Shown here in pieces: positions 7,220-62,077 of a stretch of 64,000 nt of DNA. Numbering within the stretch: the stretch's first letter is position 1; every line of letters starts with the position of its first letter. The stretch comes from Cephalotus follicularis (Eukaryota; Streptophyta; Magnoliopsida; Oxalidales; Cephalotaceae): positions 1-64,000 of the forward strand of contig BDDD01000171.1 in NCBI GenBank assembly GCA_001972305.1. Reading direction: 5' to 3'. The position numbers were made by a program, and so were the translations under genes. Below the pieces are notes generated by a model. That model was given only the letters and a program-made list of their open reading frames with translations, did no database searches and was not told where the DNA came from.

Positions 7220-7609
7220 TTAATTCGGTAAATTTCTGCGCTAAACTGAAACTTGTGCCATGAATTTAAATATATATATATACATGCGGGGATTCTCACA
7301 TCTACGGGATTGCTGTTTCATATTAGTTTTCTTATTTATTTATTTTGTTAGTCTACGTTAGATATTTAATTTGAATTGTTTAGTTTTTCATTAAATTAGT
7401 TTAATTTAAAACCAATCATCTTTTCAATTTATTTTATTTGCATTGTTAGTTTAGATTAAATTAATTTCGTATTCGTTATTTTTGTTTAGTAGCATCCTAG
7501 GTTTATTTTTATAGCATCTCCTTTCAGCTCTTCGTGGGAACGATCCCTACTTCCACTTGCTAAATTGTTAGATTAGGGTAATTTTGATTCGGCCTAACGA
7601 CACCTATCA

Positions 7610-11376: not shown

Positions 11377-13008
11377 TGTCACACCCCGCCTTTCATAACC
11401 ATCAAATAAGTGGTAGCAATTAACATGATATCCGTCTTATCCATTTTATGATAAATTTTAAACTTTTCAAACAGTTATTTCAATTGCGGAAGCATTCGAT
11501 AATAAGCCGAATTAAACCATAACACGCTTCCCATACCACGTGTTACCAATGACACAAATAACCCATTGTCAATTGCCCTCAAATGGAGAGTAAATTAAAA
11601 CATTCAATACAGTATTTGATCATGTCCAGAAATCCATCAAATATATTATCCCGATATAACATTTATCCAAATACATAATTCATTACAACAACCGGAAATC
11701 CATCGGTTTACAAAGACATAATACGATAATAGTTCAACAATCCCAACAGGAGTTACGACTCCACCAGATAACATTACTACAATTGTGCTTCTCCACGCGT
11801 GTCCACATTGGTCCCACTGCATTAATCTGAAATGTAGGGGGTTAGCCTTTGTCCTCACTCGGCTAAGTAGAGAAGTTATAAATGCAGTTCGGGGTCAAAA
11901 TAATGAGTATCATGTATGAATGCACAATGATGCAGTACATAATGTACAACAGTACATATACATATATCTATATATATATGTATTTATTTATCAGTATATC
12001 TGCCATGTCCTCAAGGGGACCACACAAACACAATCAGTACAATAACTTCCACGTCACTAGCGCGATGGCAAGTAACAACAGTCTAGACACAGTAAACGAT
12101 ACTAGCACGGCGGCTAAGTACCAACAGTACTCCGCTAACGGCAACAGTAGCAACGATACCCAGAACGGTGGCTAAGTAAAAACAATACCCCGCTAGTGGC
12201 AATCACATTCAATAAGCAACTCAAGTAATTTATAGTTTATAAATGCTTGAAACAATAATTTCGATGTACAAGCCATCTATTAAGTAGTTCACAATATTTG
12301 GAGATTACTTCCCCGGTCATTTGAAAATATATGTATTTTCGTACAAAATAATGATTTATTTAAAATCATGTATCAACTTCTAAAATGATAAAACATTTTA
12401 GAAAATAGTCATAATTCGGTTCGCAGTTCACTTAACAGTATAGTATATAATGCAAACATATGCTCAGAATGCATCTAAGATCGCTGGCGTCGTACGCAAG
12501 TTTACCACCTTCTCTAAAGGTCGATTATTCCCTGTAACAGTCGTCTGTTTGTTTGAGCATTCGACTATTTTCCTCCAACAGTCGGCTGTTCTGGGCGATT
12601 AGCGTATGAGTAGTCGACTATTTTCCCTCAACAGTCGACTCTCTACACGAACAACGTACATATGATTCTTCTTGCCATTTCTGGGCAGGCTAACGCATGC
12701 ACAGTCGACTGTCTTCCTTTGACAGTCGGCTGTGTACCTTAAACAGTCGATTGTTTTCCCTAAACAGTCGGCTGTTCTGAAAACCAGTAACATGAAATTG
12801 TCCAATTTTCATCCAATCAGTTATTTGCAAGTCACTCAACCATATTCACACAATAGAATATCATCAGTAGTTCACAAAACACAATCAAAGTTCATGTATT
12901 TCCTCTATTTCATCACAACACCAGTGGATCCAACATAGTAATGCATGCAATCTAATCAATTTTCAATCTAGAGCCCAGCATACTTATCATGTTAATAGAC
13001 CACTGTAA
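11377..13008 (-). repeat. Gypsy-1 3' LTR, outer piece
   Basis: It begins TGTCACACCCCGCC, like the right LTR at 22444, and runs in parallel with it until the Copia insertion at 13009. It holds the downstream GTCGAC-core array. The rest of this LTR resumes at 16756. Confidence 0.9.
12518..12780. repeat. GTCGAC-core palindrome array, Gypsy-1 left LTR (downstream set)
   Basis: Many copies of motifs near CAGTCGACTGT and CAGTCGGCTGT occur here, parallel to the array at 23584-23840 in the right LTR. In element orientation the array lies downstream of the LTR TATA-like box, in the transcribed part. Confidence 0.85.
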
Positions 13009-16755: not shown

Positions 16756-17720
16756 CTATGATACTTCATCCAACAATCCACAGTCCAATTTAACATGCAA
16801 TCCATCAATGAGAAACATTATTTTAGAACTTGAATTTAATCGTATAATTTCTTTACAATTACCCCTACCATTGATTTCAAGTTAGAAATCGGAAGTCCAC
16901 CTCTTTACGTCTCCTCTCCAGTAACCTTGAGCCTCCCAGAAGCTCCAAGTTCGAATCCAGTAGCTCCAACCCGAGCTCCTTGGTTCACAATGGACGACCA
17001 CTCTCACTCTCTCCCCTCGCGATTTCTCACTGTGTCTTCCTCTCTAATTTCTTTCTGGTTTTCCTTTTCCACAGGTGCTGGGCGAGAGAGAGAGAGAGAT
17101 AGGCAGAGTGTTTATGTAGGTTAACTCTTCTCCTTCCTCTCCCACCCCGTTTGCATGGTCCAGATGCCATTTCTCATTCCATCACTTGCATGCACACACA
17201 CACACACATGTCACTGACACTCTTCCATTCAATCTCTGCAGGTTCAGGAGTTGTGGTGCATGTCCAACACGTTTTATTTTGCATGTGATGGCGCCTGAAA
17301 GATGCCTTTATGCTGTCAGTTGTTGCATGTGATCTCGTCACATGTTCGCACAAAAACATAGCATAATCAAGTCGATTGTTCTTCGCTAACCGTCGGCTGT
17401 CCACTTGGCCATTGTACTGCCAGGTGGCTTGGCAGTCTACCAGTCGGCTAGTTCATTCCTCCAGTCGACTGTTACACTAAACAGTCTCCCAGTCGACTGT
17501 TTCATCAACCAGTCGCCTGTTTTGAGTGTATTTCTCCGAAATTCTAAATTGTCAACACAATCCGTTTTTAACACCTTTTAACATTTCCTTACTCAAAAAT
17601 CAACACAATAATTTGAGAATTCAGCATTGAAGTCAAAAATTCAGCCATTCTCATTAATCCCATAACAAGATTACATTTGAAATTCAAATATTATAACATG
17701 CGGAAATCCCAGGCGTTACA
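16756..17720 (-). repeat. Gypsy-1 3' LTR, inner piece
   Basis: It matches 24072-25021 of the right LTR and ends with GGCGTTACA beside the polypurine tract. It contains a CA microsatellite near 17195-17209, the TATA-like CTACATAAACACT (minus strand, 17107-17119) and the upstream GTCGAC-core array at 17370-17520. Confidence 0.85.
17370..17520. repeat. GTCGAC-core palindrome array, Gypsy-1 left LTR (upstream set)
   Basis: Six or seven motifs such as CAGTCGACTGT, CAGTCGGCTAG and CAGTCGCCTGT occur, parallel to 24683-24830 in the right LTR. In element orientation they lie upstream of the TATA-like box. Confidence 0.8.
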
Positions 17721-23583: not shown

Positions 23584-23840
23584 AGGTCGATTATAACCTG
23601 TAACAGTCGGCTGTTTGTTTGAGCAGTTGACAATTTTCCTCCAACAGTCGGCTGTTCTGGGCGATTAGCGTATGTGTCGTCGACTGTTTTTCCTCAACAG
23701 TCGACTGTCTACACGAACAACGTACATATGATTCTTCCTGCTATTTCTGGGCAGGCTAACGCATGCATAGTCGGACGTCTTCCTTTGACAGTCGGCTGTG
23801 TACCTTAAACAGTCGATTGCTTTCCCTAAACAGTCAGCTA
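23584..23840. repeat. GTCGAC-core palindrome array, Gypsy-1 right LTR (downstream set)
   Basis: Ten motifs start at 23584, 23604, 23624, 23645, 23677, 23698, 23768, 23789, 23810 and 23831. The spacings are 20, 20, 21, 32, 21, 70, 21, 21 and 21 bases. The units resemble CAGTCGACTG and CAGTCGGCTG, mostly with A before and T after. Read in element orientation the pattern parallels that of Gypsy-4 at 57975-58190. Confidence 0.85.
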
Positions 23841-24420
23841 TTTTGCAAACCAGTAACATGCAATTGTCCAATTTTCATACAATCCGTTATTTGCAAGTCA
23901 CTCAACCATATTCACACAATAGAATATCATCATCAGTTCACAAAACTCAATCACAATTCATGTATTTCCTCTATTTCATCACAACACCAGTGGATCCAAC
24001 ATAGTAATGCATGCAATCTAATCAATTTTCAATCTAGAACCCAGCATACTTATCATGTTAATAGACCACAGTAACTATGATACCTCATCCAACAATTCAC
24101 AGTCCAATTTAACATGCAATCCATCAATGAGAAACATTATTTTAGAACTCGAATTTACATGTATAATTTCTTTACAATTACCCCTACCTTTGATTTCAAG
24201 TTAGAAATCGGAAGTCCACCTCTTTACGTCTCCTCTCCAGTAACCTTGAGCCTCCCAGTCGCTCCAAGCCCGAATACAGTAGCTCCAACCCGAGCTCCTT
24301 GGTTCACAATAGAGGACCACTCTCACTCTTTCCTCTCACGATTTCTCATTGGGTCTTCCTCTCTAATCTCTTTCTGGTTTTCCTTTTCCACAGGTGCTAG
24401 GCGAGAGAGAGAGATGGGCA

Positions 24421-24434
24421 GAGTGTTTATGTAG
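24421..24434 (-). promoter_or_regulatory. TATA-like box in the Gypsy-1 LTR
   Basis: On the minus strand this reads CTACATAAACACTC. Gypsy-4 (GCATAAAAC near 57372), Gypsy-6 (GCATAAAAG near 63624) and Gypsy-3 (CCATAAACAC near 41866) have similar CATAAA boxes at comparable places. Promoter function is inferred. Confidence 0.5.
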
Positions 24435-24682
24435 GTTAACTCTCCTCTTTCCTCTCACACCCCGTTTGCATGGTCCATATGCCATTTCTCCTTCCATCAC
24501 TTGCATGCACACACACACACACATGTCACTCACACTCTTCCATTTAGTCTCTGCAGGTTCAGGAGCTGTGGTGCATGTCTAACACATTTTATTTTGCATG
24601 TGATGGCGCCTGAAAGATGCTTTAGCCTGTCAGTTGTTGCATGTGATCTCGTCACATGTTTGCACAAAAACAAAGCATAATC

Positions 24683-24830
24683 CAGTCGACTGTTCTTCAC
24701 TAACAGTCGGCTGTCCACTTGGACGTTGTACTGCCAGGTGGCTTGGCAGTCTACCAGTCGGCTGGTTCATTCCTCCAGTCGACTGTTACACTAAACAGTC
24801 TCCTAGTCAACTGTTTCATCAACCAGTCGG
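24683..24830. repeat. GTCGAC-core palindrome array, Gypsy-1 right LTR (upstream set)
   Basis: Cores lie at 24685, 24706, 24757, 24778, 24806 and 24826, with spacings 21, 51, 21, 28 and 20. Read in element orientation (20, 28, 21, 51, 21) this nearly equals the Gypsy-4 upstream array (21, 28, 21, 50, 21), although the two families differ in sequence. Confidence 0.85.
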
Positions 24831-25021
24831 CTGTTTTGAGTGTATTTCTCCGAAATTCAAAATTGTCAACACAATCCATTTTAAACACCTTTTAACATTT
24901 CCTTACTCAAAAATCAACACAATAATTTGAGAATTCAGCATTGAAGTCAGAAAGTCAGCCATTCAACAAGATTATATTTGAAATTAAAATATTACAACAT
25001 GCGAAAATCCCGAGCATTACA

Positions 25022-51756: not shown

Positions 51757-52095
51757 AGGAGACTTAAGGAGAAGACTAAGCTATTTCTCTTGTTTAATGT
51801 ACTGAATGAACAATGACTATGTAAACCGGATTATTGTAACGTTGATTTATTTTATCTCGTACTGTATTATCACGCTCCATTTGGGCGATCGACAATGATG
51901 AGGGTTTATATATAAACTTGTTGAGCATCACGTAGTATGGGATGCGTTATGTATGTTTAAACTCAGCTTTTACATGAATGCTTCCGCTATCGAGAAATTT
52001 ATTTATTGGTAAATTTGCATGAGCTGGATTATATATAATGTTGATTGCCTTACCGCTTTATATGTTGTCTCTATGGGAAAACGGGGGGCGTGACA
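51757..52095 (+). repeat. Gypsy-4 5' LTR, end part
   Basis: It aligns without gaps to 59042-59380 and ends GGGGGGCGTGACA, three bases before the primer site. Confidence 0.85.
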
Positions 52096-52098
52096 ACG

Positions 52099-52110
52099 TG
52101 GTATCAGAGC
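52099..52110 (+). other. Gypsy-4 primer binding site
   Basis: TGGTATCAGAGC is an exact initiator-Met-tRNA site, the usual primer of plant chromoviruses. Confidence 0.9.
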
Positions 52111-52271
52111 ATATTCCATATATGCTTAGCTAGGATACTTTCCTTGGCAATCAATAAATTGTTTCTTAAAGTCGTGACTAACCGTCATCCTTCTTATAGG
52201 AACAAATGGACTGAAGGAGAACACGTGGTAGGGCTAGAGCTATTGGAGCCAATGCCCCTGAGGAAACGAAT

Positions 52272-53018
52272 ATGCTGCAAGGAGTGAATGTCCCCCAAGA
52301 TGATAGGGACCCGATGACCCAGATTGCGGATTACTTCCAGCAACAAATGGCCTTTAATATGGCTAATGCGGAGGAGATGCGCCAGTACTACGCGCAAGCT
52401 CGACCGCAACATAGCGCTCCCGATCACTGCCCAGGAGAGGATAGTAGTCAGTTTGGAAAGGACATCGAAAGGTTTATGAGACAGAATCCACCCAGCTTCC
52501 GGGGAGAGCTTGATGCTACGATTGCTGAAAGATGGCTTCAAGACTTAGAGAAGATTTTTGAAGTGATGGACTGTACCGATACTCATAAGCTGAAGTTTGC
52601 TATGTACCGTCTATGGGGAGAGGCCACTCACTGGTGGGAGATGGTCAAAGCGAAGTGGGAGTCAGTTGGACTCGATGCTACATGGGAGAGATTCCAGATA
52701 GAGTTCCTCGATTCATATGTACCCCGGATCGAGCAAGAATGGAGGGAGATAGAGCTTCTTGAGTTACGTCAAGGGGAGATGACTGTGGCCGAATACCAGG
52801 CCAGGTTTGTGGAGCTAGCCAGACATTCACCTTATCTGGTAGTCGATGACGTGAAAAAGATACGAAGATTTCTGAAGGGTTTACGACCGGATCTTCGGTC
52901 GAGGATTAGGGATATGGAGCTGGGTACCTTTTCAGAGCTCGCTCAAAAGGCGAGGCTGCTGGAGAGCATATCCAGTGAGGACCGAGCAGAGAGGGCCAGA
53001 GCACAACAAAATAAATAG
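52272..53018 (+). CDS. Gypsy-4 gag
   Basis: This 248-codon frame contains DYFQQQMAFNMANAEEMRQY, RFMRQNPPSFRGELDATIAE, YRLWGEATHWWEMVKAKWES and MTVAEYQARFVELARHSPYL, close to Gypsy-1 gag. The first in-frame Met is probably downstream of the family's start, which in the relatives reads MDRRRTRAR. Zinc knuckles follow at about 53145-53260 (GLCLRCGESGHSVRDCP). Confidence 0.8.
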   Translation: MLQGVNVPQDDRDPMTQIADYFQQQMAFNMANAEEMRQYYAQARPQHSAPDHCPGEDSSQFGKDIERFMRQNPPSFRGELDATIAERWLQDLEKIFEVMDCTDTHKLKFAMYRLWGEATHWWEMVKAKWESVGLDATWERFQIEFLDSYVPRIEQEWREIELLELRQGEMTVAEYQARFVELARHSPYLVVDDVKKIRRFLKGLRPDLRSRIRDMELGTFSELAQKARLLESISSEDRAERARAQQNK

Positions 53019-53329
53019 AGCCCGACAAGACCAGCTTCTTCAAAATGGCAAGGCAGTGGTTCTCCGACGAAATCATCGAAGAACAGATCGGGGAAGACTG
53101 CCACACAGGGTACTCCTAGTCAGGGGAGTAATGCGGGAATTGGAGCTTGTTATCACTATGGTCGTAAGGGCCACTTACAGAAGGGTTGCTGGAGGATGAA
53201 TGGACTGTGTTTGAGGTGTGGGGAATCCGGCCATTCAGTGAGAGATTGCCCGAAAAGTCAAACTACAGCACCTACTGGACCAGCGAGTAGCAGCGAGGCC
53301 GCAACGGGGCCTTCGCAGTGAAGCGACAC

Positions 53330-56300
53330 CGGCAAAGGCATTACGAAAGGTAGAGTTTTTACCCTTTCACAGACAGAGGTTCCAGAGTCTACCTCGGTCA
53401 TTGGAGGTACAGTGTATATTTATGGTTTTTCTGCTAAAGTATTGATGGACCCTGGAGCATCACATTCTTTCATATCATCACATTTTGCATCATGTCTAGA
53501 TGTAACACCAGACTGAACGCCATATACCTTGGATGTGAGCACACCTGCTGGAGTTTCCATGTATACAGATACTGTATATAGGGGTTGTGAGATGTCTATG
53601 GCAGGCATTTCCTTGTATGCGGATTTGATAGTATTGCCTATCCGCGACTTTGATGTTATTTTGGGAATGGATTGGCTGTCAGCACATCATGCTTACATGG
53701 ACCGCTACAGCAAGACGGTTAATTTTCGTCTGCCCGATGGTACTACTTTCCAGTTTAAGGGAGACAAGGGGTTTTCCACACCGATTGTATCCTTCATCTG
53801 TGCTGCGAGGTATCTCGAGAAAGGATGTGAAGGGTATCTTGCTTATGTAATTGATCGGAGGAAGGAGAAGGGTTTGAGCCTGGAAGAGATCCCAGTAGTG
53901 TGTGAATTTCCAGATGTATTTCCAGATGACTTGAGATCTTTGCCACCGAGAAGGAATATGGAGTTTGTCATCGATCTTATACCAGGTACAACTCCTATTT
54001 CTAAAGCACCGTATAGAATGGCTCCTGCGGAGTTGAGATAGCTGAAACTGCAGCTACAGGACCTGATCGATAAGGGTTTCATTCGACCCAGTGTTTCACC
54101 GTGGGGTGCACCTGTACTTTTTGTCAAGAAGAAGGATGGGTCGATGAGGCTCTGCATCGATTACAGGATGTTGAACAAGGCAACTATCAAGAACAAGTAT
54201 CCTTTACCTCATATCGAGGATCTATTCGACCAGTTGCAAGGGGCGAGAGTGTTCTCGAAACTTGATTTGAGATCAGGATATCACCAATTAAGGGTGAGGG
54301 AAGGAGATATAGAGAAGACTGCTTTCCGGACAAGATACGGTCACTATGAGTTCCTTGTGATGCTTTTGGTGTTACCAATGCACCGGTTGCGTTCATGTCA
54401 TTGATGAACGATGTGTTTCGACCGTACGTGGACCAGTTTGTCGTTGTGTTTATTGACTACGTACTTGTATACTCAAGGAGCGAGGAAGAGCATGCTTGCC
54501 ACCTGAGGTTGGCTCTGCAGATTCTCCGAGAGCAGCAGCTGTATGCCAAATTCAGTAAGTGTGAGTTTTAGCTTGACCGTGTGATCTTTCTTGGTCACAT
54601 TGTATCTAGAGAAGGTTTGGCGGTGGATCCGTCAAAGACAGAGGTGGTACGAGATTGGCCACAGCCGAAGAATGTGACGGAGGTACGCAGTTTTCTTGGC
54701 TTGCCGGTTTACACAAGGTTTATCCAGAATTTCTCGAGAATAGCTGAGCCCTTGACTAGATTGACCCAAAAGAAGACCATGTTTGTCTGGGATGATGATT
54801 GCGAAGCTAGTTTCTGTGAACTAAAGGATCGGTTGATTTCCACTCCTATCTTGGCATTACCTGAGGGTAATGAGGGCTTTGTAGTTTATAGTGATGTATC
54901 GGGTAAGGGCTTGGGCTGCGTGCTGATGCAGCGAGGAAAGGTGATTGCTTATGCTTCTCGGAAGCTGAAGCCGTATGAGGAAAACTACCCGACTCATGAC
55001 CTTGAACTTGTAGCTATTATTTTCTCCCTTCAGAAGTGGAGACACTATCTTTATGGGGCGTAGTTTGAGATCTTTACCGATCATAAAAGTTTGAGGTACC
55101 TGTTTTGTCAGGACACACTGAACATGAGACAGCGCAGGTGGGTAGAGTTCTTTAATGATTATAATTGTAGTATCCAGTACCACCCGAGGAAAGCGAATGT
55201 AGTCGCTGATGCCTTGAGCCGCAAGGCTATGGTTGCCAGTACGATGGTGTCGCAATGGAAGATGTTAGAAGACTTCCAAGAGTGGTCTCCGTTCAATCAG
55301 TCACCGGGGATCTTTCTAGCCGACATGCGAGTACAGCCTGTGTTACTTGATCACATCAGGGGTGCACAACCACATGATCCGGAGTTGCAGCAAATTTGGG
55401 AGAACCTGAATTCGGAATCCGATTTTCGAGTACATGATGATGGTATTCTAAGATATCGAGGACGTGTGTGTCTTCCGAATGAACCGAGACTGAAGGATGA
55501 GTTACTCCGCGGGGCTCATAAATCTCTTTACAGTATTCATCCTGGTAGCACCAAGATGTACCAAGATATGAAGAAAACTTACTGGTGGCCCGGCATGAAA
55601 CGCGAAATTGTAGAATATGTCGCGAAGTGTTTGACTTGCCAGAGGGTCAAGGCCGAACACCAGAGACCTGCGGGACTGTTGCAATCATTACCAGTGGCGG
55701 AGTGGAAATGGGAACACATCACGATGGACTTTGTTTCTGGATTTCCATTGACTAGGCATCGTCATAATGCCGTGTGGGTTCTTATTGATAGACTCACCAA
55801 ATCAGCACACTTCTTGCCTACACGTGTCACTAATTTCGCGAGCAAGTTGGCTCGATTATATGTGAAGGAGATTGTGAGACTGCACGGTGTTCCGGTGAGC
55901 ATTGTTTGCGATAGGAATTCGATCTTCACTTCCAACTTCTGGAAGAGATTGCAGACAGCCTTCGGAACAAGATTAAATCTCAGTACTGCCTTCCACCCTT
56001 AGACAGACGGACAGTCAGAGCGTACCATCCAAACCTTGGAGGATATGCTTCGGGCTTGTGTAATCGATTTTGGTGGAACCTGGGAAGACCATATCCCTCT
56101 GATAGAGTTTTCTTATAATAACAGCTATCACTCGAGTATTGGTATGGCTCTATACGAGGCACTATATGGGAGGAAGTGTAGGTCACCCACCTGCTGGGAC
56201 GAGGTTGGTGAACGACCATTGCTTGGGTCAGATTTGGTGGAGGAGACTTCGGAGAAAGTCAAGTTCATCAGAGAAAAGTTGCTTGCAGCGCAGAGTCAGT

Positions 56301-56763
56301 AGAAGAGCTATGCTGACAGTGTGAATAGAAGGCCTTTAACCTTCAATGTAGGAGATCACGTGTTTTTGAAAGTATCTCCGTGGAAAGGGGTACAAAGATT
56401 CGGGAAGAAGGGCAAGCTAGCGCCACGCTATATTGGTCCTTTCGAGATCCTGGAGAAGGTTGGGGAGGTAGCCTATCAGCTAGCCTTGCCTCGTACCTTG
56501 TCGGGTATACATGACGTCTTCCATATATCTATGCTGAGGAGATATATCCCGGACCCGTCACATGTTCTGGATCATGATGCTGTTCCGGTACAAGGTGACC
56601 TGTCTTGTGAAGAGTTGCCTGTGCAGAATCTTGATTGGAAAACGCAGATCTTGAGGAACTGAACCATCTCCATGGTCAAGGTTCAATGGCAGTCCCACCG
56701 ACCGAACGAAGCAACTTGGGAGCGTGAGGAGGATGTCCGAGAACGCTACCCACACTTGTTTTA
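53330..56763 (+). pseudogene. Gypsy-4 pol: protease to chromodomain (broken)
   Basis: Domains in order: protease (about 53380-53760, with VLMDPGASHSFISSHFASCL), reverse transcriptase (about 54040-54560, with [20 protein letters not shown] and [14 protein letters not shown]), RNase H (about 54680-55130, with [20 protein letters not shown]), integrase (about 55500-56300, with HPGSTKMYQDMKKTYWWPGM, CLTCQRVK, HITMDFVSGFPLTRH and [13 protein letters not shown]) and an end part at about 56330-56763 with MVKVQWQSHRP-type chromodomain sequence and ATWEREEDVRERYPHLF. About half a dozen breaks occur. Confidence 0.8.
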
Positions 56764-56791
56764 GTATATGTAAATTCGAGGACGAATTTCT

Positions 56792-56806
56792 TTGAAGGAG
56801 GGGTGA
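56792..56806 (+). other. Gypsy-4 polypurine tract
   Basis: TTGAAGGAGGGGTGA lies one base before the 3' LTR start TGTAACGCCC. The same tract, inverted, marks Gypsy-1. Confidence 0.8.
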
Positions 56807-56982
56807 TTGTAACGCCCGTAATTTTCACGTATTGTAATTTCACAATGTAAATGTACTTTATTTGTGGAATTAATAAAAGGATGAATCTTCCGAATTTGAT
56901 GACGTTTTCCCAACTACGATGATGTTGATTTTAAGTCAATAATGTACTTAGAAGCGTGATTACTTGGTAAGTTTACTGGAGG

Positions 56983-57133
56983 TAGTCGACTGGCACAGAA
57001 GACCAGCCGACTGGATAGCTACGTGTGGAAGCAGTCGACTGGTGGGATGAACCAGTGTACTGGCCAACTGTCATGACACTTGGCAACAGACTGTCAGGCG
57101 AACAGCCGATTGCCAGGGAATGGCAGCCGACTG
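56983..57133. repeat. GTCGAC-core palindrome array, Gypsy-4 LTR (upstream set)
   Basis: Units start at 56983, 57004, 57032, 57053, 57103 and 57124, with spacings 21, 28, 21, 50 and 21. They resemble CAGTCGACTGG or CAGCCGACTGG. The spacing pattern is almost the same as in Gypsy-1 although the sequences between units differ. Confidence 0.85.
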
Positions 57134-57371
57134 GTTCGTGCTCTGTTTTATTTGCATGTGACGAGATCACATGCAGCCACTGAGAAGGCATCTTGCAGGC
57201 ACCATCTGATGATGGATGAAACGTGTATGCCATGCACATAACTGCTAGAACCTGCAGAAACTGAGGGGAAGGGATGGAATGACATGTGTGTGTGCATGCA
57301 AGTGTTAGAAGGGAGGATGGCATTTAGTGCCATGTGAGGGAGCTAGGGGGAAGGGAAGAGAAAAAGTCTTT

Positions 57372-57380
57372 GCATAAAAC
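57372..57380 (+). promoter_or_regulatory. TATA-like box in the Gypsy-4 LTR
   Basis: GCATAAAAC lies about 240 bases after the upstream array and about 600 before the downstream one; Gypsy-6 has GCATAAAAG at the matching place. Followed by a pyrimidine-rich CTCCCCTCACTTCTCTC tract that may hold the start site. Confidence 0.5.
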
Positions 57381-57974
57381 GTCTCCCCTCACTTCTCTCG
57401 TCTAGACACTGAAAGACCAAGGAACCAGGGAAATTGAGAGTGAAATAGTGAGAAATTGAGAGAGGAAATAGTAAAAATTGAGAGGATTCCTCATTGTCAA
57501 GCTTGGAGCTCGGTTGGAACCTACTGGACTGTCCTTGGAGCTACTGGGAGGCTCAAAGATACTAGAAAGGAGACATAAAGAGGTGGACTTCCGATTTCTA
57601 ACTTGAAATCAAAGGTAGGGGAAAATAGTAGAGAATTCTATGCATGCATTTTGAGTTTAAGTGTAATGATGTTATAAATGAATGGTGTAGTTGCTGGTTG
57701 TGGATTTTGGTATTGATGTTGTGGTTACTGTTAATGAATAACCTGACATGCACACTGAATTTTGAATGGAGTTATGGATTGGTTTTCATGCAATACCATG
57801 TTTGGATATCATTTGAATTATGAATGAAAACGGAGAATAATGCATGAACTGAGTTGTGTTTTAGACCATGATATGATTACTGATGATATTCTGTGATATG
57901 AATACGTGTGGAATGGTTCCAGTTGCTTGTGGAATGGATTTAGAGGTGAATTACTGGTACTGTCCAGCCCAGAA

Positions 57975-58190
57975 CAGCCGACTGTTTAAGTAAAACAGTC
58001 GACTACTCGATCATCCAGCCGACTATCTAGTAAGAACAGTGGACTGTGCATGCGTTTTTGCCCAGAACAGTCGACTGTCGAAGGAAGATAGTCGACTGCT
58101 GATTACTTGTGATGAACAAGTCAACTGTTGGGGAAGAACAGTCGACTGACTCAAGGATCCAGCCGATTGTTATGGAAAAACAGCCGACTG
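57975..58190. repeat. GTCGAC-core palindrome array, Gypsy-4 LTR (downstream set)
   Basis: Ten units start at 57975, 57996, 58016, 58037, 58068, 58089, 58118, 58139, 58160 and 58181, with spacings 21, 20, 21, 31, 21, 29, 21, 21 and 21. Units include ACAGTCGACTGTC, ACAGCCGACTGTT and TAGTCGACTG. The DNA between them is not repeated, apart from A-rich bases before many units. Confidence 0.88.
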
Positions 58191-59380
58191 TTATAACAGA
58201 AACTGAACCTTTAGAGAAGGGATAGGCCTAGGTTAATTACCAACAACCCTAGGTGCATTCTGGGCATATGTTTGCCCTGCATTTGAAGAACTACTGTACT
58301 GTGGATTGCATTATGGTTGATTTCTAAAATGTATTAACCATCTTGGAAAACTGGCATGATTACTAAAATCATTATCTCGCGAAAATATATATTTGTCAAC
58401 TTATGATTTTATATATTTTCGAAATAATTGGGGAAGTAATTCCAAAGACGGAGAAATGTTTTAAAGGATTGATTACACAATCAAACGTATTGTTTTAAGT
58501 TTTATAACTTATCACAACTTGTGAACGGAGTAATATATTTTAAACAAATATATTTGATCAAGTAATTATATTTATTACTTGACTTGTACTGTGCAATGCT
58601 TGTGCCTGTTGATTACTCTGCCGCTGTGCTAGTAACTTGCTGTTGGTTTAGCCGCCGTGCTAAGCAACATACGGAGGACTTGCTCCAAAACCGTTCGCAA
58701 ACGGGGATGGGGTAAGAGTGCATGACGTTGGGGCCAGGAGGTGACGACGGTTATGACGACTGGTTTGTCTGGTTCCTTTTGGGACATATTTACTGCTTGT
58801 GTTGATATAACTTATGAGGTTATACTTGTACTGTGAACATGCATACATTTAATATGTACATACGGAGATATAATTATTGTGAAAATTACATGTCATACTG
58901 CATCACTATGCATTCATTCATGATACGCATTACCTTGACCCTGGACTGTATACATAAACTTTTCTACTTAGCCGAGTGAGGACAAAGGCTAACCCCCTAC
59001 TGTAACAGATTGATGGAGTGGGTTTTGATATGGAGTACACAAGGAGACTTAAGGAGAAGACTAAGCTATTTCTCTTGTTTTATGTACTGAATGAACAATG
59101 ACTATGTAAACCGGATTATTGTAACGTTGATTTATTTTATCTCGTACTGTATTATCACACTCTGTTTGGGCGATCGACAATGATGAGGGTTTATATATAA
59201 ACTTGTTGAGCATCACGTAGTATGGGATGCGTGATGTATGTTTAAATTCAGCTTTTACATGAATGCTTCTGCTATCGAGAAATTTATTTATCGGTAAATT
59301 TGCATGAGCTGGATTATATATTATGTTGATTGCCTTACCACTTTATATGTTGTCTCTATGGGAAAACGGGGGGCGTGACA

Positions 59381-61240
59381 CCTCATAACCTTCTGGTAAT
59401 GCCAACACTGGAGCTGAAATCAGCCGACTCTTCCACTCTTGGAAACTTGCCTCACAAGAATCATCCCACACAAAACTTGACTTCTTCTTAGTCAACTGTG
59501 TCAATGGTGTAGCAAGCTTCAAAAACCCCTTGATGAACCTTCGGTAGTAGCTAGCCAATCCCAAGAAGCTTCGAACCTCAGTAACGCTCCTCAGTTGGGG
59601 CTAATCAACAATACTCTCTATCTTCGAAGGATCCACCGACAATCCCTCTCTTGACACAATGTGACCTAGGAAAGTCACATGATCCAGCCAAAACTCACAC
59701 TTGCTGAATTTGGCGAATAATTGTTCCTTCCGCAATGTCTGCAATATAATCCGTAAATGCTGCATGTGTTCCTCAATGCTCTTTGAATAAATCAGGATGT
59801 CGTCTAGGAATATAATGACAACCTGGTCAAGATAGGGCTGGAACACTCTGTTCATCAAATACATAAAGGCTGCAGGAGTATTTGTCAAACCAAACGACAG
59901 TATCAGAAATTCATAATGCCCATATCTGGTTCGAAATGCGGTCTTCTCCACCTCACCTTCTCGGATCCTCAACTGATGATAACCTGTTCTCAGGTCAAGT
60001 TTGGAGAATACAGTTGATCCTTGCAATTGGTCGAACAACTCCTCAATATGTGGTTAAGGATACTTGTTCTTCACGGTTACCTGATTTAGCAGCCTGTAGT
60101 CGATGCAGAGCCACATTGATCCATCCTTCTTTCTCATAAACAGAACTGGTGCTCCCCACGGTGATACACTCGGTCTGATGAAGCCCTTATCAAGGTAATC
60201 CTGCAGTTGAGTCTTCAGCTCCTTCAGTTCAGCAGGAGCCATTCAGTACGGAGCTTTTTATATAGGAGCAGTTCCAAGAAGTAGTTCAATACTGAACTCT
60301 ATATCTCTCTCTGGTGGTAACGAAGTGAGATCATTTGGAAATACATCAGGAAATTCACATACAACAGGCACTTGTTCAATACTAGGCGTACCTTTCGTAT
60401 GATCAATCACATACACCAAATAGCCTTCACATCCTTGCTTGAGATACTTCTGTGCTCTAGCATATGAAATGATTGGAGCAGATACATTCTTCTCACCGAT
60501 AAACTTGCACTCAGTCCCATCTTGAAGATAAAATGTCATCATCTTGTTGTAGCAATCAACACAAGCATGATGAGAATACAGACAGTCCATCCCCAAGATC
60601 ACATCAAAATCCCGGATAGGCAATACTATCAAGTCAGTAGATAACTGAATCCCAGCTACCGTGATTTCACAATCTTTCATTATAGTGTCAGATAGAAGAC
60701 AAGTACCAGCTGGAGTACTCACCTCCAATACATAAGGTAATCTAGAAGTAACACCATGCAAGTTTCAAGCAAATTCAGATGCAATGAATGAATGTGTCGC
60801 ACCAGGGTCAATCAGTACATGAGCTAGTATGCCAGATATAAAAATGGTACCTCCCACAACAGTAGTAGATTCTGGCACATAATATCTAGACAAGGTGTAG
60901 ACCCTGCCTTTCACAATCCCCTTTCCGATATCCTTCCGCGGTTGAGCAGCCGCAACACTACCACTCACACCAGCACTTCCCTATTGGCCGCGTGCCTGAT
61001 CCCTCATCATTGGACAACCATTTAGTATATGATCTTGTGAACCACACCTCAAGCATTTCCCCATCTTTTCCAGCACTCAGTCTCATCATGGTTATGACTA
61101 CCACAAAAAGTACATCCACCCGTATTCTGTTGACTGTTTCGGCTAGGAGTCCTTGATCAGGAATTACTGAGTCGAGAACCTCCTTGCCCCCGGTTACCAG
61201 ACTTTGACGATTTAGCAGGATTGTTACTTCCCTACCCCTG
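59381..61240 (-). pseudogene. Gypsy-5 protease, RT and RNase H start (broken)
   Basis: In minus-strand order: protease (about 60880-60580, with VLIDPGATHSFIASEFA and LIVLPIRDFDVILGMDCLYS), reverse transcriptase (about 60240-59640, with [49 protein letters not shown] and the catalytic VIIFLDDIL), then RNase H (SYYRRFIKGFLKLATPLTQL) up to the Gypsy-4 edge. Confidence 0.8.
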
Positions 61241-62077
61241 TTATTGTGCAAGCCTCGATTGATTAGTAAGAGACCGCTCAGCTCTCCGTTCATCAGCATC
61301 GGCTTCCAGAATCATTGCCCTTTCAGCAATATCTACAAAAGAGGTCAACTGCAACAGTAACAGTTTAGATCTGATGTTAGGTCGAAGGCCTTTTAGAAAC
61401 CTTCGGATCATTCGCGATTCACCCTCCACAAGGTAAGGTGTATGTCTTGCAAGCTCCACAAATCTAATATGGTACTGAGCTACCATCATATCTCCTTGAC
61501 ATAACTCCATCAGCTCAGTCTCCCTCCGGTCACGTTCTATCTGTGGTACATAAGTTGCAAGGAACTCAGACTGGAATCTGTCCCAAGTCTAGTCAAGTCT
61601 ACATGATTCCCACTTTGCTTCAGTCCTTTCCCACCAATAGGTAGCCTCGCCCCATAAGCGGTATACAGCAAAGTTGAGTTTCTGCTCATCAGTGCACTCC
61701 AAAGGAGCAAATATTTTATCCAGGTCTCTAATCCACTGCTCGGCCACAGTAGCATTCAACTCACCATTGAATATCGGAGGATTCTGTCTCATGAACCGCT
61801 CCAAATCTCTGCCAAACCCACCAGTAAGACAAGCTTCAGGAGCATGATGATAGGCCCGGTTAGCCTCGTACATTTGCCGAATTTGTTCCATGTTCGCCGC
61901 GTTGGCTTGCATCTGCTGTTGGAAGAGGTCAGCCATGCGGTCAAAATCACACCTCTCATCATGCGCTGGAGGAACATTTACCCCTTCATTCGCTGGCAGA
62001 TCATGTTCGTGCACTGGCGGTGCATTGACTCCTTCGTCGGCTCTACGCCTTCCTCTCCTACCTCTTCGTAGGTCCAT
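61240..62077 (-). pseudogene. Gypsy-5 gag (broken)
   Basis: The minus-strand start MDLRRGRRGRRRADEG is followed by a Pro/Asn/His-rich stretch with two VNVPPxH-like repeats, then LFQQQMQANAANMEQIRQMY, RFMRQNPPIFNGELNATVAE, YRLWGEATYWWERTEAKWES and YHIRFVELARHTPYL. This is a Tekay-type gag with a family-specific N-terminus. Confidence 0.8.

Follow-up and report, generated by a model that had tools for sequence, protein, structure and literature searches.

Why a retrotransposon long terminal repeat (LTR) should carry one short palindromic word many times, at recurrent distances and on both sides of its promoter, is the question raised by a locus of Cephalotus follicularis, located in the 64,000-nucleotide window of contig BDDD01000171.1 that was analysed here as a whole. 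A preliminary description of this DNA had reported six such sites in one array and ten in another, and all 16 were recovered where it had placed them; the word common to the sites of this LTR is CAG[T/C]CGACTG. The features of the element and its LTR, all on the plus strand, are the following:

52272-53018, gag piece (Pfam Retrotrans_gag, Ty3_capsid)
53529-54041, protease piece (Pfam RVP_2)
54581-55063, RNase H piece (Pfam RT_RNaseH_2)
55091-56002, integrase piece (Pfam Integrase_H2C2; the rve match lies below its cut-off)
56303-56662 and 56663-56764, chromodomain-like text in two frame pieces after the integrase, read by eye
56808-59380, 3' LTR of about 2.57 kb with the ends TGTAACGCCC...GGGCGTGACA, from self-comparison and sequence; 56808 is taken as its first base, 56804 being also possible
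56983-57133, upstream (U3) array, sites at 56983, 57004, 57032, 57053, 57103 and 57124
57373-57379, TATA-like CATAAAA, found by eye, from which the presumed transcription start derives
57614-57620, splice-donor-like GGTAGGG with the boundary after the first G, found by eye
57975-58190, downstream array, sites at 57975, 57996, 58016, 58037, 58068, 58089, 58118, 58139, 58160 and 58181

The element and its arrays

By its domains the window element is a broken Ty3/gypsy element, probably a chromovirus (Tekay/Del-like). Pfam gag, protease, RNase H and integrase zinc domains follow one another in the order of a Ty3-type gag-pol, and the coding pieces are interrupted by stops. The end of the LTR (59042-59380) is repeated on the left at 51757-52095, over 339 bp with 97% identity in the self-comparison. 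It is also worth mentioning that the stretch 51757-61797 contains nested or rearranged elements, and that the DNA past the right LTR is 68-69% similar, on the opposite strand, to the coding region of the window element.

Counted from the start of the window LTR, the upstream array occupies about 180-330 bp, ahead of the TATA-like box, and its sites are spaced by 21, 28, 21, 50 and 21 bp; a weak seventh site at 57084 (3 mismatches) divides the 50-bp gap into 31+19. The second array is found about 1.17-1.38 kb into the LTR, with spacings of 21, 20, 21, 31, 21, 29, 21, 21 and 21 bp. The window copy is decayed and differs from the canonical word at three of the six upstream sites; in the 21 close copies (the window copy included) the canonical word is the majority state at all six. 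In the whole 64-kb window CAGTCGACTG is matched with up to 2 mismatches 57 times against 19.9 expected, and none of 100 shuffles attained 57. With up to one mismatch 31 of these 57 matches remain, grouped in six clusters, namely the two arrays already reported and four more, all of the latter alignable to the window LTR or to one another:

12538-12774, minus strand, array in a related LTR, from the word search
17369-17519, minus strand, array in a related LTR, from the word search
23604-23840, minus strand, array in a related LTR, from the word search
24683-24833, minus strand, array in a related LTR, from the word search

Several families have arrays on either side of a TATA-like box, which supports the proposed placement around the promoter. 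The sequence (T/C)TATAT(C/T) was found by eye in four other LTRs about 240-260 bp past the fourth site, and two arrays 0.8-1.1 kb apart are present in eight further stretches (L025, L032, L034, L036, L039, L046, L048 and 23604-24833 of the window). The splice-donor-like site reads GGTAGG in the window LTR and two relatives, whereas four other LTRs have GGTAAGT or AGTAAGT in the corresponding position (all by eye). Since this putative donor is located between the two arrays, the downstream array may sit within a leader intron after the presumed first exon. A 22-bp unit, present in 2.5 repeats at 57430-57484, follows directly after the presumed transcription start.

Abundance and spacing of the word

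The genome searched comprises 1,577,397,061 bases (1.58 Gb) in 9,746 contigs. Exact CAGTCGACTG occurs in it 197,377 times against 939 for the reversed control word, CAGCCGACTG 88,572 + 88,820 = 177,392 times (controls 708 and 622), and TAGTCGACTG 43,506 + 44,087 times (controls 651 and 593); summed over these three forms, there are about 460,000 near-perfect sites. The CpG-decayed form CAGTCAACTG was counted 10,983 + 10,378 times (controls 2,138 and 2,035). Sites with at most one mismatch were present in four of 20 sampled 10-kb places on 20 contigs.

The genome contains 64,792 exact pairs at distances of 14-44 bp, against 209 in the control. They comprise 37,144 at 20-22 bp, 7,802 at 27-29 bp, 2,206 at 38-40 bp, 741 at 30-33 bp and 47 at 25 bp. 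The spectrum has peaks; a flat one, which the preliminary description had named as evidence against its proposal, is not what the genome counts show. Of the peaks that it had predicted at two and three helical turns, the former stands at 20-22 bp, but distances of 30-33 bp are rare and the second step falls at 27-29 bp. On a single contig (C1) the 86 distinct exact pairs 14-44 bp apart among the matches listed divide into 57 at 19-22 bp, 12 at 27-28 bp and 17 at 41-43 bp, with none elsewhere. Nearly all pairs of 30-33 bp among the matches listed represent the 31-bp joint of the window LTR's own family. The second spacing step is 28 bp, outside the helical phase, and 31 bp is almost private to the family of the window LTR.

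Helical phase was analysed at 10.5 bp per turn for 158 steps of 25 arrays, belonging to LTR families that are related, so that their spacings are not independent events. The near-21 steps (129 of the 158) are tightly phased, with R of 0.92. The other 29 have a mean phase of -93 degrees and an in-phase component of -0.04 (null -0.01, sd 0.13). With the joints out of phase, the blocks do not share one DNA face: the sites do face one side of the DNA, as had been supposed, inside the near-21 blocks, but not across the joints. Helical phasing across all steps was ruled out by these joints together with the rarity of 30-33 bp. A 7-bp period at the joints gave R of 0.41 against a null 95% limit of 0.32. 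Two eight-site arrays, L033 (821-984) and L040 (701-864), have mirror-symmetric spacings (20-22-21-28-21-22-20). A family of 17-site arrays, mostly of the CAGCCGACTG type (L036 690-1195, L037 751-1256, L042 696-1201, L044 718-1223), is built of blocks of about four sites with 50-73 bp between the blocks.

Two types of joint, both known from the sequence of the window LTR, are distinguished by their content:

57014-57031, plus strand, 18-bp joint between sites spaced by 28 bp, with CGTG at 57022-57025 in TACGTGTGG
58047-58067, plus strand, 31-bp joint with TGCATGCG, typical of the window LTR's family

Among the matches listed (50 joints, both neighbours exact), CGTG or CACG is present in 27 of the 41 distinct 28-bp joints, and in 23 of these 27 the core is preceded by seven bases. 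Shuffled joints contain it 4.2 times on average and at most 12 times in 2,000 shuffles, and only two of 124 distinct short spacers have it. Among the collected arrays CGTG is found in only five of the 17 joints of 27-28 bp (L034, L035, L038, L046 and the window LTR), which limits the claim of a second core to part of the families; in L025, although it is closely related to the window LTR, the joint lacks it. The CGTG core is compatible with both G-box (bHLH/bZIP) and NAC cores, and TGCATGCG resembles an RY element of B3 factors.

Conservation and variation of the sites

From 38 arrays found, 25 were picked by hand; the 13 left out were near-duplicates, related copies and the L020 array. In these 25 dereplicated arrays, with 183 sites, the site positions carry 0.93-1.89 bits and positions outside them at most 0.44, a contrast that is partly circular because the sites were picked by similarity. 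Families were then compared in pairwise alignments of eight upstream and nine downstream arrays, in pairs with flank identity below 0.80. Identities without masking were 0.884 for sites, 0.542 for spacers and 0.690 for flanks upstream, and 0.844, 0.568 and 0.674, respectively, downstream. Upstream spacers have fewer gaps per aligned base than flanks (0.064 and 0.122). Downstream spacers are as gapped as flanks (0.138 and 0.124), and by this measure fixed spacing is without support there.

Masking the sites before alignment gives a more restrained picture. Register was lost in most pairs when gaps were loose, and the figures reported come from stricter gap settings. Under these, register was kept by 34 of the 83 upstream sites and by 27 of the 53 downstream ones, and the pooled site identity of 0.524 upstream and 0.561 downstream was no better than that of the spacers. 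Most of the distant spacers do not align unaided, and most of the distant pairs are out of register when masked. A part of the identity seen without masking is therefore due to the pull of the sites on the alignment. In three closer upstream pairs (L034-L039, L034-L046 and L039-L046), 12 of 13 sites stayed in register, with masked identities of 0.92-0.97 for sites, 0.67-0.70 for spacers and 0.74-0.77 for flanks. The expectation of conserved sites with unconserved spacers was thus confirmed between LTR families, the masked alignments agreeing only for the closer pairs.

Within a family the sites behave differently. Taking the window LTR together with 20 close copies (91-95% identity), diversity is about equal in the three classes, with 0.066 at sites, 0.077 in spacers and 0.070 in flanks, and no deletions were seen in the array columns of these 21 copies, insertions being outside the count. 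Sites that decay like their surroundings within the family are not intrinsically less mutable; this neutrality, combined with conservation between families, indicates that selection acts on the replicating lineages. Retention between families set against neutrality within one is the strongest argument for function. Protection of CpG at the sites (diversity 0.129 in 12 columns against 0.185-0.190 in 18 columns) was dropped as a claim.

The word varies on one side. Long homology to the window LTR gave the orientation of 15 dereplicated arrays, and in these C occupies position 4 in 33 of 93 sites and the mirror change, G at position 7, is found in one; 13 arrays have more C4, none has more G7 and two are tied. 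As these arrays are related to each other, some of the events may not have arisen independently. Either change should be acceptable to a symmetric homodimer, and the one-sided variant therefore makes a symmetric dimer doubtful as the binder, a dimeric DNA-binding protein having been suggested in the preliminary description. The asymmetry is claimed for the homology-oriented arrays only: matches to LTR starts in L011 and L016 suggest that one group, six of the 38 arrays, may be reversed, and this group might show the opposite. In the 183-site profile and in counts of neighbouring pairs, orientation is uncertain for 10 of the 25 arrays, for which the letters themselves partly decided it. At position 10, an apparent asymmetry (28 A10 against 10 T1 in the 183 sites) was withdrawn, as it disappeared under homology orientation (10 against 7 of 93).

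The word recurs in a second LTR lineage, represented by L020, whose LTR starts with TGTGACACCC and has no match to the other sequences compared. The 19 aligned copies, all of them old (the L020 array at 7484-7572 plus 18 further copies, L069-L086), have four decayed sites of the CAG[T/C]CGACTG word at 25-29-25. Diversity in this family is 0.282 at sites, 0.249 in spacers and 0.173 in flanks; the excess at the sites perhaps comes from CpG decay. The first L020 module is a near inverted repeat around GGAATTCC. The presence of one word in separate LTR families, of which L020 is the single such case, favours a host protein over one encoded by the element.

Possible functions and known counterparts

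Site conservation, quantised spacing and within-family neutrality being observed, we infer, with a probability of about 0.58, that the arrays act in an LTR superfamily of chromovirus type as a cis-regulatory platform on which a DNA-binding protein of the host docks. A sequence-specific host protein would recognise CAG[T/C]CGACTG, and sites two helical turns (20-22 bp) apart would place its copies side by side on one face, probably in a cooperative manner. In part of the families the upstream 28-bp joint would seat a second factor on CGTG, in the arrangement site-site-CGTG-site-site. The upstream array ends about 240-310 bp before the TATA-like box and the second lies several hundred bp beyond it; both would increase transcription from the LTR. 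Lineages keeping the sites would keep replicating, and in this way the sites would last between families, with decay limited to dead copies. It counts against this reading that the 10-bp word as a whole was not matched to any known plant factor.

The sites might instead serve anti-silencing, by recruiting a protein, perhaps element-made like VANC, that removes DNA methylation from the LTR. According to the accessible part of Hosaka 2017 (PMC5735166), VANC targets are non-palindromic words of 8-9 bp in fast-changing tandem repeats of VANDAL transposons, dense in non-coding DNA and, for VANC21, in one orientation. The present sites are likewise short words, dense in non-coding DNA, and co-oriented in the 15 homology-oriented arrays, as the excess of C4 over G7 indicates. 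Active sunflower Tekay elements carry an extra ORF, structurally like dsRNA-binding proteins, in the available portion of PMC12844716, which would also fit. By the same part of PMC5735166, however, VANDAL is a Mu-like DNA transposon that itself encodes the VANC binder, whereas the window element is an LTR element with Ty3-type domains. The tandem repeats of VANC arrays evolve rapidly, and the LTR spacers are unlike each other. In the window element, a broken copy, only about 44 bp separate the end of the coding remnant (56764) from the LTR, and no minus-strand ORF of at least 150 aa is present. The word in the separate L020 family favours a host protein. Anti-silencing is given a low probability.

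A stress enhancer bound by DREB/CBF-type AP2 proteins has its attraction in G[C/T]CGAC, which is the CRT/DRE core or near it: the core [A/G]CCGAC is contained in CAGCCGACTG, and the word varies most at the C/T position of G(C/T)CGAC, where it does so on one strand. Barley CBF (HvCBF1) binds (G/a)(C/t)CGAC. Only C4 sites can provide the CRT/DRE core, however, and the C form is outnumbered genome-wide by CAGTCGACTG. Moreover, the whole 10-bp word is conserved, conservation at positions 1, 2 and 9, outside the DRE core, being about equal to that of the core and at position 10 almost as high. In the accessible texts, a DREB1 site is reported as LTR-associated (PMC11656987), but ChIP is stated to have shown no recruitment of Arabidopsis CBF3 to GTCGAC elements (PMC5209670, data not shown there). 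On balance this reading, too, is improbable.

A nucleosome-positioning or chromatin-geometry device, as suggested in the preliminary description, would agree with the near-21-bp steps and with the arrays, such as L033 and L040, that are mirror-symmetric and close to nucleosome length. Nucleosome positioning signals need no exact 10-bp word, though, the joints are out of phase and four-site arrays cover only about 80 bp, all of which leaves such a device very unlikely. Little probability is likewise given to a function at the RNA level, in which palindromes in the transcript would pair as hairpins or dimer contacts or be sources of small RNAs. Stems of 10 bp are possible between neighbouring sites, and Sirevirus LTR palindromes are described as small-RNA hotspots in the available parts of PMC5311732 and PMC10760457. 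Against it, C4 is common without G7 in the homology-oriented arrays and would give C-A mismatches in sense RNA, and 158 neighbouring pairs, from arrays of which 10 of 25 are uncertainly oriented, yield 3 compensated against 100 mismatched cells. The last and least credible alternative, a functionless relic of an old 21-bp minisatellite, would explain the regular near-21-bp step and co-orientation by tandem duplication, but spacers diverge more than flanks while sites stay (unmasked alignments), low mutability is no explanation for sites that decay like the rest within a family, and Tandem Repeats Finder reported no tandem array at either of the two window arrays.

Among known systems, the arrays resemble the palindrome arrays of Sireviruses and the VANC target arrays and are a member of neither. 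In the accessible part of Bousios 2010 (PMC2829016), each Sirevirus (Ty1/copia) element holds its palindromic LTR motif 8-32 times, with 3-14 copies in the 3' LTR; the motif precedes the TATA box, has a CGG-CCG core in 12 of 13 cases, and is called Sirevirus-specific among the elements compared there. Both systems repeat a short LTR palindrome eight times or more in an element (the window LTR has 16 sites), and the Vitis word CGGTCGACCG, from the same part of that paper, has GTCGAC in common with the present one. The window element, in contrast, is Ty3/gypsy by its domains, the core is AG[T/C]CGACT, a second array lies beyond the promoter, and steps of 21 and 28 bp are preferred; a spacing rule is not seen in the available text of PMC2829016. 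A literature search, with most subscription journals and all preprints outside it, found among the papers listed for the word none on retrotransposons by title, and no description of such an array. As far as searched, such arrays in Ty3-type LTRs, the 21/28 steps and the second array past the promoter are new, as are a CGTG core limited to some families and the conservation between families set against neutrality within one.

LTR promoters are usually regarded as loose collections of factor sites. The arrays raise the doubtful possibility that a chromovirus LTR superfamily shares one enhancer grammar (21-bp site pairs, the 28-bp step, CGTG in many families and a second array past the promoter) read by one plant DNA-binding protein, whose main genomic targets, and a sink for it, would be these elements, coupling transposition to the protein. 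The hundreds of thousands of site copies represent a natural experiment on the spacing rules of an enhancer. Should the word be read by a host protein, this protein is likely a main switch of elements that abound in the Cephalotus follicularis genome, and the spacing preferences together with the one-sided variant make it directly testable which protein that is.
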